A stretch of 39,632 bases of DNA from Deltaproteobacteria bacterium (GTDB lineage Bacteria; Myxococcota_A; Polyangia; Polyangiales; JADJMO01), in the NCBI GenBank assembly GCA_025363655.1, contig JANYDK010000143.1:1-39632 (forward strand). Direction: 5' to 3'. Below are positions 29,323 through 36,114 of this stretch, piece after piece (within the stretch, counting starts at the first letter, position 1; each line of letters begins with the position of its first letter). The notes under the pieces are model-generated. The model did no database searches and was not told the origin of the DNA. It saw nothing but the letters and a program-made list of their open reading frames with translations. Position numbers and translations under genes: made by a program.

Positions 29323-32300
29323 ATGGTTCTCTGCGCCCGCTTCGCCAGTTTCTCCACCGTGCTCGTTCTGGGTGGCCTCGTCAGCTTCGCCAGCTTCGGT
29401 TTCGGGTGTTCCGGAGGGCGGGCGCCCGCATCCGACGAGCTCGACGCGGCCGTGCCGAAGCCCGCCGAGACCCCCGTCGAGCGCGCGGAATCCACACTCG
29501 CGGTGCTTCGCGCCCAGCCCGTCTTCGCCTCGGCATTGCGTGCGCGGAGTGAGTTCCGCATCGAGGCCGGCCAGCCGGTCTTCCCCGACGCCCGACTGCG
29601 CGTGAAGGCGCCGACGAAGGCGAACGGCGCGCTCCGCCTCGAAGCACGCGGGGACGACGATGCTTGGATCGAAGTGCGCGCGCTCGATGCGAGCGACGTC
29701 GCGGCGACCTTGCGCGACGGCGTCCTCACGTATCCGGCCAGCGTCGGCGGCGGAGATTTGGTCTTTGTCGGCAGCGCCACCAGCCTCGAGGAAGCCCGGG
29801 TGCTCCGCGAGCCGGTCGCCGAGTATCACGCGCGCTATTCGATTCGCCTCGGCGCACGCATCGTCAGCGTCCGCGCGCGCGAGCATCGCATCGAGTGCGT
29901 CGACGCGAACGGCTACGTCGTCATCGGCACCGCGCCGCTCTACGCTCTCGACGCGAAGGGTGTTCGCCGCGAGCTCGACGTCGCCGTCACGATGAGCAAT
30001 TCGGGCGAAGCGACCGTCGACGTCAGCGGCTCCTTTGCCGAGCTTTCGGCGCCGATCGTCGTCGATCCGGTGTGGAGCACGGTCTCGCCGATGTCGGTCG
30101 CGCGCCTCGGACACGCCGGCATCGCGCTCAAGGACGGGACCATTCTCGTCACCGGTGGCCAAAGCGCCGGCGTGTTCTTCACCTCGAGCGAGGTCTACGA
30201 CCCGAAGACGAACACCTGGACCACGGTCGGCTCGATGAACCGCGCGCGCGGCGGCAATTCGCTGGCGCTGACGCCGAGCGGGAAGGTGATGATCGCCAGC
30301 TCGTACGTCTACGACATGCCCGTCGAGTCCTACGACCCGGCGACGAAGACATGGTCCCCGGTCACCGTCGGCTCCGGCGTCGGCGTCGGCGACCACGTCT
30401 TCACGTTCTCGACGGGGAAGATCGCGATGGTCGGCGGGGAATCGATCTCGCTCTACGACGAGACCACCGCCAAGTGGACCCTCGGCACCAGCGGACCTGC
30501 GCCGCGTGGCTCCGCCGGAATCGGTTTGCTCGCCGACGGACGTCTGATGTTCGCGGGCGGGCTCGATTTTCCGGGCAAATGGTACAGCCAGGTCGACATC
30601 TACGACCCCAAGACCGACAGCTGGACGACGACCGGGCCGCTCTCCGCGCACCGCACCGATGCCGCCGTCATCGGCCTCGCCGACGGCGGCGCGTTGGCGG
30701 TCGGCGGCAACGTCGCCGGAGTGAGCGGCGTCACCATCGTCGAACGCTACGACGTCGTCGCCAAGACCTGGTCGATCGTCGCGCCGTTGCCGGCGTCCAC
30801 CGCCTCCATCGGCGGCACACCGACGCTGACGATGCTCGCCGGGGGTCGCGTGATGATCCCCGAGCTCGGCTACGGCGGCAAAGGCGCGGCGATCTTCGAT
30901 CCGGCAGCGAACGAGTGGCGCAGCACCACCCCCTCCACGTCTTCGCACGGCTCCTCCCCACCGCTCATCGTCAGCGGCACGGCCGTGTACGTCATCGGTG
31001 GCAACGACGACAAAGGCGCGGCCGGTGCCGACGTCGAGAAGTTCGTGCCCATGGCCAACGGAAGCGCCTGCGTCGCCACGGCGCCTGGGGACTGCGTCTC
31101 CGGCTTCTGCACCGACGGCGTCTGCTGCAACCGCTCCTGCACCGGTCCGTGCGAACGCTGTGACGCCAGCGGATCGGCCGGCACCTGCAGCGGTCTCACC
31201 GGCGCTCCGCACGCGACGCGCACGTGTGATCCCTACGCCGCTTGCAGCGCCGGCTCGTGCGCGAGCTCGTGCACCGTCGACGGCGATTGCACGGCGACGA
31301 GCTGGTGCTCGAGCGGCAAGTGCGCGCCGAGGGTCGGGTCGGGAAAGGCCTGCACCAGCGGACGTGGTTGCAACTCCGGCAACTGCGTCGACGGCGTATG
31401 CTGCGACACCGCCTGCAGCGGCCAGTGTGAAGCCTGCAACGTCGGCGGCAAAGAGGGCGTCTGCACGCCGGTGACCGGCACTCCGAAGGGCGCCCGTCCT
31501 GCGTGCACCGACGGCAGCAGCGAGTGCGGCGCCGTCTGCAACGGCACCAAGCGTGACGCGTGCGTCTATCTCGCCGCGGGGAGCCGGCCGTGCGGAAAGG
31601 CGAGCTGCCTCACCGGCGTCGAGACCCATCCGAGCACCTGCGACGGCAAGGGCGCGTGCTCCGACAAACCGTCGTCGTGCGGCAACTACGCGTGCGGCGT
31701 CGACATCTGCAAGAGCGCGTGCGGCACCAAGGCCGACTGCACGCCGGGCAACCTCTGCGTCTCCAACGCCTGCGTCCCCGCGCCGGGCCTCGGCGATCCT
31801 TGCAAGGACGCGATCGAGTGCTCGACCGGCTATTGCGTCGACGGCGTCTGCTGTGGCGTCCCCTCCTGCGGCGCCGGAAGCACCTGCGCAGCGCCTTCGA
31901 AGGCCGGTCACTGCACGCACGACCTCGGGCTCGCGTGCTCGGTCGACGACCAGTGCGCGTCGGGGAAGTGCGTCGACGGCGTCTGCTGCGAGAGCGCGTG
32001 CAACGGCAACTGCGAAGCGTGCGACGTGCCCGGCAACAACGGTCACTGCACGGCCGTGAAGGGCGCGCCGCGCGGAGCCAGGCCGGCCTGCGCCAGCGAC
32101 ACCAAGAACGTCTGCGCGCAGATGCTCTGCGATGGCGTCGATCACACGGCATGCAAGTCGTACGTCGCCGCGGCCGTCACTTGCCACCCGCGTGCATGTA
32201 CCGACGGCACGCTCGTCGAGGCCGTCGCCTGCGATGGCAAGGGCGCCTGTCCGGCGACCGCGCCGAAATCATGCGGTGGTTATGCATGTGACCCCAAAGG

Positions 32301-35300
32301 GCAGGAATGCCTGCGTATTTGTCACTCGGCCGCCGAGTGCACGGCCGGCTACGTCTGCGACAAGGGAGAGTGCCGCGTGGCCACTGCCGCCTGTTCGATC
32401 GACGGCGCGTCTGCGGTCGCCGCCGACGGGACCGTGACCTCGTGCGAGAGCTATCGTTGCCGTGGCGACCACTGCTTGACGACCTGCACGGCCTCCGACG
32501 ATTGCGCGGCCGGCAAGACCTGCGGCGCCGATGGGACCTGCAGCGACGTCGCGCCGTCCGATGGCGGCGGTGGATGCAGCGTCGGCGCGGGCCCGAGTGC
32601 GCTCCCCAGCCGAGGCGGACCTCTCGCCGCGTTGTTCGGGCTCCTGGCGATGGGCGGCGTGTTCCTCCGACGTCGTCGGGCGATCGCGAGCGCGGCCGTC
32701 GCGACGCTCGGCTGCGTCGCCTGCTCGTCGCCGACGATCAGCACCGAAGGCAAAGAGTCGAACGGCTCGAACGAGAGCCACACCTCGTCAGCGCAGCCGG
32801 CGAAGACGCCGGTGATCGCCATGACACCGACCCGTCCCGAAGGCGTGATCGATGCGCTCGGGGCGATCGCTCCCATCGGCGGACGGCTCCACGGCAGCGG
32901 AACGCTCGTCTCGTCGTCGCACGGCTTGCGGCTCGCCGAGGTGACGAAGCCCTCCGGTTGGACGCCGGTCGGAGGCGACCGATTGCTCGCGACGCTCCCC
33001 TCGAGCGCCGACGCGAACCTGCACCTCGAGATCGTCGGCGCCCACGGAATGGCCGTCGATCTGCGCGCCGAAGACGTCGGCAGCGTGGCACCGACCTTGG
33101 TCGGCAACGTCGCCGTCTATCGCAATGTCGACGAAGAGACCGACCTCGTCCACCTCGCCGACGTGCACGGTGCCGAGGAGCTGCGCCTGCTCCGCGTCGC
33201 GCGAGATCGGACCTTCACCTATCGACTGCACCTCGGCGCCGGCGCGGCGTCGGCCCGCGTGATCGGCGATCACCTGGAAATTCTCGACGAAAATGGGATC
33301 GCGCGACTCCGCACCGCGCCGCTCGTCGCCTGGGATGCCCGGGGAGAAACGCGCTCGCTGCACGTCGAGCTCGCCCCCGACGCCGACGGCTATCGAATGA
33401 CCATCCACCTCGACGCGACGGGACTCACGGCGCCGATCGCCGTGGATCCGGCGTGGTCGAGCACCGCCGACACCCACTGGGGACACGCGCCGGGCATCGC
33501 GGTCCGCACCACCAAGGGCACCGTCTTCGCGTTCGACGCGGTCAGCGGTGACCACCGCGACCTCTACGATCCGACGACGTCGACGTGGAAAGACGTCGAC
33601 GACGGCATGCTCTACCAGCGCCACAACTCGGGCTTCGCGGTGCCGCTCGCATCCGGGAAAATCCTCATCGGCGGCGGCTTCGACTCGGCGACCGCGCGGG
33701 TCTCGGAGCTGTGGGATCCGACGACGGGTGCGTACACGCTCGGTGGCTCGCAGGCCTTCTCGCGCGCCAACGTCGGCACGGCGTTCGTACCCGCGCCCTA
33801 CAACGTCTCGCTCGTCATCGGCGGCAACAACAGTGCGACCTGCGACCCCAACGTCTACCGCTACGACGAAGCGACCTCGAAATACGTGGCCGTCGCGTCG
33901 ATGTCGATCGGCCGTGTGGCGTTCACCACCGTCGTCCTATCGACTGGCAAGGTGCTCGTCGTCGGCGGCGCCGCCGGCACAGTCAGTGATTTGGTCGCTA
34001 CCGGAGAAATCTACGATCCGGCCACCAACACCTGGAAAGCGTCCGCGCCGATGTCGGTCGCGCGCAGCGCCCACTCGGCCATTCGTCTGACGAGCGGCAA
34101 GGTGCTGGTCGTCGGCAACTCCCACTACGGCAGCGGCGACGGCACGACCGCCGAAATCTACGATCCGACGACCGACAAATGGACGAGCCTCCCCAAGATG
34201 GCGTTCGCCCGTGAAACGCCGGTGCTCGCGCTCCTCCCGAGTGGGCGCGTCCTCATCGCTGGCGGCAACGACGCCACCACCACCACCGAGGTCTTCGATC
34301 CGGCGACGAACACCTTCGTCCTCGCCGGCGCGATGGCCGACGCGCGCGCCGAGCCCGCAGGCACCGCTCTCGCCGACGGCTCGGTCCTCGTCTTCGGCGG
34401 AAACAAGAAATCCGAGGTGCTCTTCTCCGCCGAACGTTTCGTCGAACAGGCGACCGGCAACGCATGCACCGGCGATGGCGACTGCACGAGCGGCCACTGC
34501 GCCGACGGCGTGTGCTGCGCGACCACTTGCACCGGCGCTTGCTCCTCGTGCGGCCTCGCCGCATCGAAGGGCACCTGCTCGCCGACGACGGGCGCGCCAC
34601 TTCCTGGACATGGGAGCTGCGCGCCCTACCTGGTCTGCGTGGCCGGCGCCTGCGGGAGCACCTGCACCGCCGACACCGAATGCACCACCGGCAACTACTG
34701 CAACAGCGGCAAGTGCGTCCCGAAGAAGACCAACGGCCTGGCCTGCGCCGCTGCCCGCGAGTGCGGTTCCGCTGCCTGCGCCGATGGCGTCTGCTGCAAC
34801 GTCGCCTGCGACGGTCAGTGCGAAGCCTGCGCCGAGACCGGCACTGTCGGCACCTGCACGGCGGTCAGCGGGCTCCCGCGCACGACCCACGTGGCGTGCG
34901 ACGGCATCACCATCGGCGGCGCGTGCGGCTCCCACTGCAACGGCGTCGAACGAAAGACGTGCGTCTACCCCGCGGCGGCCGCGAGCCCTTGCTCTGGTGA
35001 TTCGTGCGGCGGCGGCATCGAGACGCACGCCAGCTCGTGCGATGGCGTCGGACGCTGCAACGACGCCCCCAAGCACTGCGGCGCGTATGCCTGCGGCGGG
35101 ACCAAGTGCAAAACGGCCTGCGCGGTGAGCAGCGATTGCGTCCTCGGCTTCGTCTGCAAGGGCGTCGTCTGCGTCCCGGCCCCGAGCCTCGGTCAGCCCT
35201 GCTCGTCGACGGTGCCTTGCGATGGTGGCCTCTTCTGCACCGACGGCGTCTGCTGCGGAGAAGCTTCCTGCGGCTCCAGCAAGTCGTGCGCGCTTCCCGC

Positions 35301-36114
35301 AACGAAGGGGACGTGCGCGAAGGTGAACGCCGAAGCGTGCGTCAGCGACGGCGAGTGCGGCTCTGGCGCTTGCGTCGACGGCGTCTGCTGCTCGAGCACC
35401 TGCGACGGACAGTGCCAGGCCTGCGACGAGCCCGGCAACGTCGGCAAGTGCGTGCCGGTCAAAGGCAAGCCGCACGGCAAGCGCATCGCCTGCGAATCGA
35501 GCAAAGATCACCCCTGCGAATCGACGGTCTGCGACGGCAGCGACGGCAGCCGTTGCGTGGCCTTCGTCGGCTCCGAGGTAAGTTGCGCCGCGTCGACGTG
35601 CGTCGATGGCGTCGTCAGCGACCCGGCCACCTGCGTCGCCGGAGCGTGCAGCACGCCGGTCACCCACTCGTGCGCACCTTACCGTTGCACGAGCACCGGC
35701 GCCTGCGGCCTGACCTGCGCCAAGAGCGAAGAGTGCGCAGCGGGCTTCGTCTGCAACCTCGCCGACAAGAAGTGCGTCGCCTCGAAGCGTCGATGCTCCG
35801 ACGACGGCGCCTCGGTCCTCGATCCGGAAGGGAGCTCGTTCACCTGCGCACCGTTCCTCTGCCGCGCCGACGACTGCCTCGTCGAGTGCAAAGGCGCCGA
35901 CGATTGCGCCCCTGGCCTCGTCTGCGACGGCACCGCACACTGCTCGCTCCCGCGAACCGAGACGGGCACCGACGGTGGCAGCGGTGGTTGCTCGACCAGC
36001 GGCAACGGCACGAGCGGCACCAACGGCCGTGGCACGGGCAACACGGGCACTCTCGTCTTCACGATGGTGACGGCTGGCTTGGCCTTGGCCGGGTTGCGAC
36101 GCCGTCGCCGCTGA
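29323..36114 (+). CDS. two-module Kelch/Cys-rich surface protein with internal and terminal MYXO-CTERM
   Basis: The product is 2263 residues in one uninterrupted frame, built from two paralogous modules. Module 1: a signal with a Cys near residue 29 (GFGC); a beta-rich region to about residue 250 ending IVVDPVWS; Kelch propeller blades (about 256-580, for example SSEVYDPKTNTWTTVGSM); a Cys-rich zone (about 583-1080) with repeated G-x-C-x-D-G-V-C-C and C-x-G-x-C-x-x-C; then GGGGCSVG, a hydrophobic helix and RRRR (about 1082-1117), a MYXO-CTERM. Module 2 repeats this order: signal-like stretch ending GCVAC, domain ending IAVDPAWS (about 1378), Kelch, Cys-rich zone from about 1713, and a final GGCSTSG, helix and RRRRR. 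Likely a cell-surface adhesin. The last 56 bases overlap the convergent gene. Confidence 0.88.
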   Translation: MVLCARFASFSTVLVLGGLVSFASFGFGCSGGRAPASDELDAAVPKPAETPVERAESTLAVLRAQPVFASALRARSEFRIEAGQPVFPDARLRVKAPTKANGALRLEARGDDDAWIEVRALDASDVAATLRDGVLTYPASVGGGDLVFVGSATSLEEARVLREPVAEYHARYSIRLGARIVSVRAREHRIECVDANGYVVIGTAPLYALDAKGVRRELDVAVTMSNSGEATVDVSGSFAELSAPIVVDPVWSTVSPMSVARLGHAGIALKDGTILVTGGQSAGVFFTSSEVYDPKTNTWTTVGSMNRARGGNSLALTPSGKVMIASSYVYDMPVESYDPATKTWSPVTVGSGVGVGDHVFTFSTGKIAMVGGESISLYDETTAKWTLGTSGPAPRGSAGIGLLADGRLMFAGGLDFPGKWYSQVDIYDPKTDSWTTTGPLSAHRTDAAVIGLADGGALAVGGNVAGVSGVTIVERYDVVAKTWSIVAPLPASTASIGGTPTLTMLAGGRVMIPELGYGGKGAAIFDPAANEWRSTTPSTSSHGSSPPLIVSGTAVYVIGGNDDKGAAGADVEKFVPMANGSACVATAPGDCVSGFCTDGVCCNRSCTGPCERCDASGSAGTCSGLTGAPHATRTCDPYAACSAGSCASSCTVDGDCTATSWCSSGKCAPRVGSGKACTSGRGCNSGNCVDGVCCDTACSGQCEACNVGGKEGVCTPVTGTPKGARPACTDGSSECGAVCNGTKRDACVYLAAGSRPCGKASCLTGVETHPSTCDGKGACSDKPSSCGNYACGVDICKSACGTKADCTPGNLCVSNACVPAPGLGDPCKDAIECSTGYCVDGVCCGVPSCGAGSTCAAPSKAGHCTHDLGLACSVDDQCASGKCVDGVCCESACNGNCEACDVPGNNGHCTAVKGAPRGARPACASDTKNVCAQMLCDGVDHTACKSYVAAAVTCHPRACTDGTLVEAVACDGKGACPATAPKSCGGYACDPKGQECLRICHSAAECTAGYVCDKGECRVATAACSIDGASAVAADGTVTSCESYRCRGDHCLTTCTASDDCAAGKTCGADGTCSDVAPSDGGGGCSVGAGPSALPSRGGPLAALFGLLAMGGVFLRRRRAIASAAVATLGCVACSSPTISTEGKESNGSNESHTSSAQPAKTPVIAMTPTRPEGVIDALGAIAPIGGRLHGSGTLVSSSHGLRLAEVTKPSGWTPVGGDRLLATLPSSADANLHLEIVGAHGMAVDLRAEDVGSVAPTLVGNVAVYRNVDEETDLVHLADVHGAEELRLLRVARDRTFTYRLHLGAGAASARVIGDHLEILDENGIARLRTAPLVAWDARGETRSLHVELAPDADGYRMTIHLDATGLTAPIAVDPAWSSTADTHWGHAPGIAVRTTKGTVFAFDAVSGDHRDLYDPTTSTWKDVDDGMLYQRHNSGFAVPLASGKILIGGGFDSATARVSELWDPTTGAYTLGGSQAFSRANVGTAFVPAPYNVSLVIGGNNSATCDPNVYRYDEATSKYVAVASMSIGRVAFTTVVLSTGKVLVVGGAAGTVSDLVATGEIYDPATNTWKASAPMSVARSAHSAIRLTSGKVLVVGNSHYGSGDGTTAEIYDPTTDKWTSLPKMAFARETPVLALLPSGRVLIAGGNDATTTTEVFDPATNTFVLAGAMADARAEPAGTALADGSVLVFGGNKKSEVLFSAERFVEQATGNACTGDGDCTSGHCADGVCCATTCTGACSSCGLAASKGTCSPTTGAPLPGHGSCAPYLVCVAGACGSTCTADTECTTGNYCNSGKCVPKKTNGLACAAARECGSAACADGVCCNVACDGQCEACAETGTVGTCTAVSGLPRTTHVACDGITIGGACGSHCNGVERKTCVYPAAAASPCSGDSCGGGIETHASSCDGVGRCNDAPKHCGAYACGGTKCKTACAVSSDCVLGFVCKGVVCVPAPSLGQPCSSTVPCDGGLFCTDGVCCGEASCGSSKSCALPATKGTCAKVNAEACVSDGECGSGACVDGVCCSSTCDGQCQACDEPGNVGKCVPVKGKPHGKRIACESSKDHPCESTVCDGSDGSRCVAFVGSEVSCAASTCVDGVVSDPATCVAGACSTPVTHSCAPYRCTSTGACGLTCAKSEECAAGFVCNLADKKCVASKRRCSDDGASVLDPEGSSFTCAPFLCRADDCLVECKGADDCAPGLVCDGTAHCSLPRTETGTDGGSGGCSTSGNGTSGTNGRGTGNTGTLVFTMVTAGLALAGLRRRRR
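32569..32736 (+). other. internal MYXO-CTERM that doubles as a lipoprotein-type signal sequence
   Basis: Within the 2263-codon gene, GGGGCSVG is followed by LAALFGLLAMGGVF and RRRR. Directly after comes a second hydrophobic run ending LGCVAC and a Ser/Asn/Thr linker. The in-frame ATG at 32650 (Met1110) would give an n-region MGGVFLRRRR for the second signal. No stop codon separates the modules. A strong ribosome binding site before 32650 is not seen. Confidence 0.7.

Follow-up and report, generated by a model that had tools for sequence, protein, structure and literature searches.

The open reading frame at 29323..36114 of the window (the whole 39,632-nucleotide stretch analyzed here, contig C71 of a 9.0 Mb genome in 150 contigs; all window coordinates refer to the plus strand) probably encodes a bacterial polyprotein, in which two surface proteins would be made as one chain, pass the membrane out, in and out again as a hairpin, and be cut apart by a myxosortase and by lipoprotein signal peptidase. 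Bacteria seldom make polyproteins, and a C-terminal sorting tag is assumed to mark the end of its protein. The frame remains open over all 2263 residues, and the coordinates and letters given for the joint between the two halves in the initial annotation proved correct.

Each half of the protein carries kelch repeats (Pfam) followed by Cys-rich repeats. The halves are paralogous, with 36% identity over about 1080 residues, and are about as similar to each other as to the halves of G003:C64. As read from the sequence, module 1 opens with a lipoprotein-type signal (..SFASFGFGC29; 29323..29409). Module 2 (32716..36111) consists of an acidic/Ser linker, kelch repeats and Cys-rich repeats, and closes with a putative MYXO-CTERM-like tag (GGCSTSGN...TLVFTMVTAGLALAGLRRRRR; 35983..36111), for which no match was reported when this half was scanned with TIGR03901. 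L061, L062 and L276 share this layout, in which every module opens with a lipoprotein-like signal and closes with a MYXO-CTERM-like tail, so that in these chains and the window protein each mature half could have an anchor at either end.

The first half ends in GGGGCSV..PLAALFGLLAMGGVFLRRRR, and the frame over this segment (32563..32679) reads GGGGCSVGAGPSALPSRGGPLAALFGLLAMGGVFLRRRR. It shows the MYXO-CTERM signature of an invariant Cys (Cys1085, 32575-32577), a hydrophobic helix (32620-32667) and an Arg cluster (RRRR, 32668-32679), and it aligns with 25 other joints. Its TIGR03901 scores, 16.5 bits (E 0.008) with half 1 alone and 15.8 bits when the whole genome is scanned, fall below the curated cut-off of 20 bits. 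The tag is internal, with 1144 residues downstream, and AIASAAVATLGCVACSS (32680-32730) follows it directly, without a stop. The segment RRRR-AIASAAVATLGC has the positive n-region, the hydrophobic h-region and the lipobox ending in Cys of a lipoprotein signal; it too lies inside the protein, with no supported start near. We regard AIASAAVATLGC (32680..32715) as the export signal of the second half, with Cys1131 (32713-32715) as the probable site of lipidation and Cys1134 (32722-32724) as an alternative. In the alignment of the 26 joints the column of Cys1131 (C52) is invariant and the preceding Gly (G51) is present in at least 90%. The lipobox of the window, TLGC, is imperfect, with T at -3 in place of the usual L and a second candidate Cys nearby, and the hydrophobic run before it is short (11 residues). 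The GC content at third codon positions stays high across the joint (0.82-0.88), so that nothing points to a frameshift. AlphaFold2 predicted one continuous helix for the joint, with low confidence, a model that speaks neither for nor against a hairpin.

The initial proposal, made from this sequence, that one stretch serves both for C-terminal sorting and as a second export signal is borne out by six ORFs in the window genome and by dozens of genomes. A scan of the window genome with TIGR03901 returned about 57 plausible tags, rows without the Cys or on the wrong strand being left out; 52 were terminal, defined by a stop within 28 residues, and five were internal. Each of the five internal tags continues into a hydrophobic stretch with a Cys at its end: RRRR-AIASAAVATLGC in the window, RRRR-AALVVAAAATLGGC in C25, RRRRR-SRSATKTVSIVSMLVTVLALHALGC in C127, RRRRR-TRAQRVAGGLAASSLMVLSAGASGC in C58 and RRKR-DRTSAKAGAALLLASSLSWSIGC in C49. 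The tag of C58, at 35.7 bits, is above the cut-off and has the best score in the genome. A sixth joint, in C63, was found with a joint profile. Among the best 30 TIGR03901 matches in the two-contig genome G030, 27 were terminal and three internal, and each of these three likewise leads into a stretch with a Cys at its end. In these two unselected scans, then, a hydrophobic run closing with a lipobox-like Cys came directly after 8/8 internal tags. A strict signal rule passed 58 of 4098 random stop-free segments of 55 residues from the window (1.4%); it was applied to five of the eight internal tags, four of which passed, and the remaining three were read by eye. L317 fails the rule, with an Arg within the 13-mer. 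The pairing of the two signals at the joint exceeds chance (8/8 against 1.4% of random segments). C25, C127 and C63 are paralogous fusions, with identities of 38-41% between their N-terminal and 42-46% between their C-terminal parts, and the fusion must therefore predate their divergence.

The search for internal joints was extended to other myxobacteria. With a profile built from five joints, many genomes of the order gave matches that were full-length and stop-free, and a profile of 24 joints gave such matches across the phylum. In all, 66 distinct joints from many unrelated families were read. The second Cys is preceded by Gly in 61 and by Ala in five, and lies 13 to 41 residues from the Arg cluster. 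The loop between the helices has on average 5.85 K+R and 0.24 D+E, as against 0.77 and 0.64 K+R in the outer flanks. A K+R-rich loop between poor flanks is what the positive-inside rule predicts for an out-in-out hairpin, and this charge pattern supports the initially proposed Arg-rich turn, which would lie in the cytoplasm. Since the joints were partly picked by a rule that demands these features, the unselected scans and the alignment of family I, described below, are the fairer tests. Two further sequences were noted: in L116 (208-369) an internal tag precedes a signal that ends in AHA-AGF and resembles a joint of a signal peptidase I type, and in L101 (1501-1683) a stop falls eight codons past the profile match to an in-frame joint. 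A search of phage sequences gave no similar sequence, and a loose Gly-Cys pattern at the DNA level was of no use for finding joints.

Family I, the type found in C58 (about 1430 residues), had matches with E <= 1e-10 in 109 of the 379 genomes of the phylum. It is conserved as one ORF, almost all of the matches listed being stop-free. An alignment of 58 fused proteins from 56 distinct loci shows the MYXO Cys conserved in 97% and the lipobox Cys in 100%, which makes them the most conserved of all Cys columns. One member is L072 (2101-6492, minus strand), with relatives L126-L140; in one contig scan, the single named relative came from a Deltaproteobacteria MAG. A Pfam scan of two members gave no match. 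The C-terminal module is predicted to form an independent propeller behind a disordered tether that follows the Cys, and Foldseek matched this model to lectins and sialidases. Joints also occur in family II (MopE-type proteins with a CDVDPFC module), in M23 peptidase/FG-GAP and cadherin-like proteins, and in the C49 ORF (L071 1887-6587, minus strand), where a GH15 glucoamylase-like module is joined to a CBM and alpha-amylase module.

Natural two-gene versions of these proteins exist. In G017 the modules of family I are encoded by two genes with a TGATG overlap, the first ending in ..GWRRRSSRRDARTKAVK and a stop, and the second beginning MNARTCLVGALALTLAGVANPGC. Within the window genome, one kelch pair (C116) has a 4-bp ATGA overlap, its second gene beginning MKRALVGAMLLVGC, and another (C125) has a 60-nt gap between the genes. 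Such versions yield a MYXO-CTERM protein and a separate lipoprotein with a fresh signal. Thus, either module can exist without the other, and the fusions may well have formed where a stop and a start were coupled. The initial annotation had held that no stop could stand at the joint without destroying a second, in-frame protein, which spoke against a simple missing stop. That argument is neither needed nor general, since a stop is accommodated in the TGATG and ATGA overlaps; it is the recurrence of the joints that rules out a simple missing stop as the general cause. In L045 and L047 a terminal tag and a stop are followed, just downstream in the same frame, by a lipoprotein-like reading, possibly a state prior to fusion. 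A cytoplasmic location of module 2 was considered and rejected: the module is Cys-rich, has a C-terminal tag of its own, and in relatives such a module is a separate lipoprotein.

Under the polyprotein reading, module 1 would be exported by its own N-terminal signal, and its MYXO-CTERM helix would act as a stop-transfer sequence, leaving RRRR on the cytoplasmic side. These Arg residues would double as the n-region for the hydrophobic run that follows, and this run, a lipoprotein signal, would restart export with module 2. A myxosortase would cut after the MYXO Cys; a gene for MrtC is present in the genome (NF040594, 246 bits; cut-off 195) and, together with the MYXO-CTERM tags, points to a myxobacterial host. 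Lgt and LspA would lipidate and cut the chain at Cys1131. The products would be two separately anchored surface proteins in a 1:1 ratio, plus a membrane hairpin of about 45 residues.

It is unlikely that the chain instead stays uncut, with the modules tied together as one protein by a two-helix membrane anchor. The weak TIGR03901 match of the window tag would be in keeping with such an anchor, but both cut-site Cys residues are conserved in family I whereas the spacing from the Arg cluster to the second Cys is variable, and the two-gene versions show that the modules need not be joined. Very unlikely, too, is the production of module 2, also or mainly, as a separate lipoprotein from an internal start at Met1110 (ATG, 32650..32652), as the initial annotation had proposed. 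This in-frame ATG, six codons ahead of RRRR, would indeed supply a plausible n-region. However, no Shine-Dalgarno-like sequence was found upstream of it, whereas the purine-rich AGAGGGG precedes the ATG at 29323. In the region searched, an in-frame ATG was present in 24 of 46 joints, five had no ATG, GTG or TTG at all, and a Shine-Dalgarno-like match was found in only two. Moreover, comparison of five pairs of relatives showed at least as much synonymous change at the joint as elsewhere. Lacking a Shine-Dalgarno sequence, a conserved start codon and synonymous constraint, initiation at Met1110 is not supported, and internal initiation is not the general route to module 2. Highly improbable, finally, is an artefact or recent fusion, in which a stop and a start were lost by sequencing or assembly error or by a new mutation, the signals being remnants of two genes: the assembly is a draft, unfused tandem kelch pairs occur in the genome and the ATGA overlap could be fused by one indel, so that this could hold for the window locus alone, but the joint recurs at six loci, three of them paralogous fusions older than their divergence, and family I is fused across the phylum, also in genomes of one or two contigs.

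We therefore return to the polyprotein reading. On balance, we favor the view that the window ORF represents a class of myxobacterial polyproteins with a myxosortase tag and a lipoprotein signal back to back, in which two different membrane peptidases would cut one chain into two surface proteins at a fixed ratio and release the hairpin, and which would have had several independent origins through loss of the stop between coupled genes. A recurrent tag with a new export signal would give myxobacteria pairs of surface proteins in fixed ratio, such as the glucoamylase-like and alpha-amylase modules of C49. Automated annotation would count two mature proteins as one, and the joints allow the action of myxosortase on internal tags to be tested directly.

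At the joints of the flavivirus structural polyprotein an anchor helix is directly followed by a signal helix, and the chain is re-exported and cut by the ER signal peptidase. The joint in the window would work in a similar manner, although the flavivirus system is viral, uses the ER signal peptidase and involves no lipids, and no relation is implied. Searches of titles and abstracts of open-licence papers found no relevant literature on bacterial polyproteins with internal signal peptides, which is weak evidence of novelty, and no open-licence paper was found for "lipo-invert", the C-terminal anchoring domain NF058595. This model matched the joints of C58, C127 and C49 weakly (about 16-20 bits; cut-off 37), did not match the window protein, and gave no match over the cut-off anywhere in the genome; it weakly matches more than 100 other places there, apparently ordinary lipoprotein signals. 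Like Sec-exported lipoproteins (Lgt/LspA), the second half of the window ORF has a positive n-region, a hydrophobic run and Gly-Cys, but its signal is internal and the n-region is borrowed from the upstream tag. Like myxosortase-sorted MYXO-CTERM proteins (TIGR03901; MrtX/MrtC), the first half has the Cys, the helix and the Arg cluster, and the genome has the MrtC gene, but the tag is internal instead of C-terminal. MrtX cleaves MYXO-CTERM, and internal MYXO-CTERM tags have been called rare, the one named being in MXAN_5598 of Myxococcus xanthus, for which the authors suggest a gene fusion with processing of the N-terminal part (PMC11980579). As in the published description of MXAN_5598, the window ORF has a MYXO-CTERM tag in mid-ORF and a second envelope module behind it. 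The C-terminal part of MXAN_5598, however, is an outer membrane beta-barrel/OmpA module, whereas that of the window protein is kelch/Cys-rich, and while the account of MXAN_5598 (PMC11980579) does not discuss a second export signal behind the tag, the window ORF has one.
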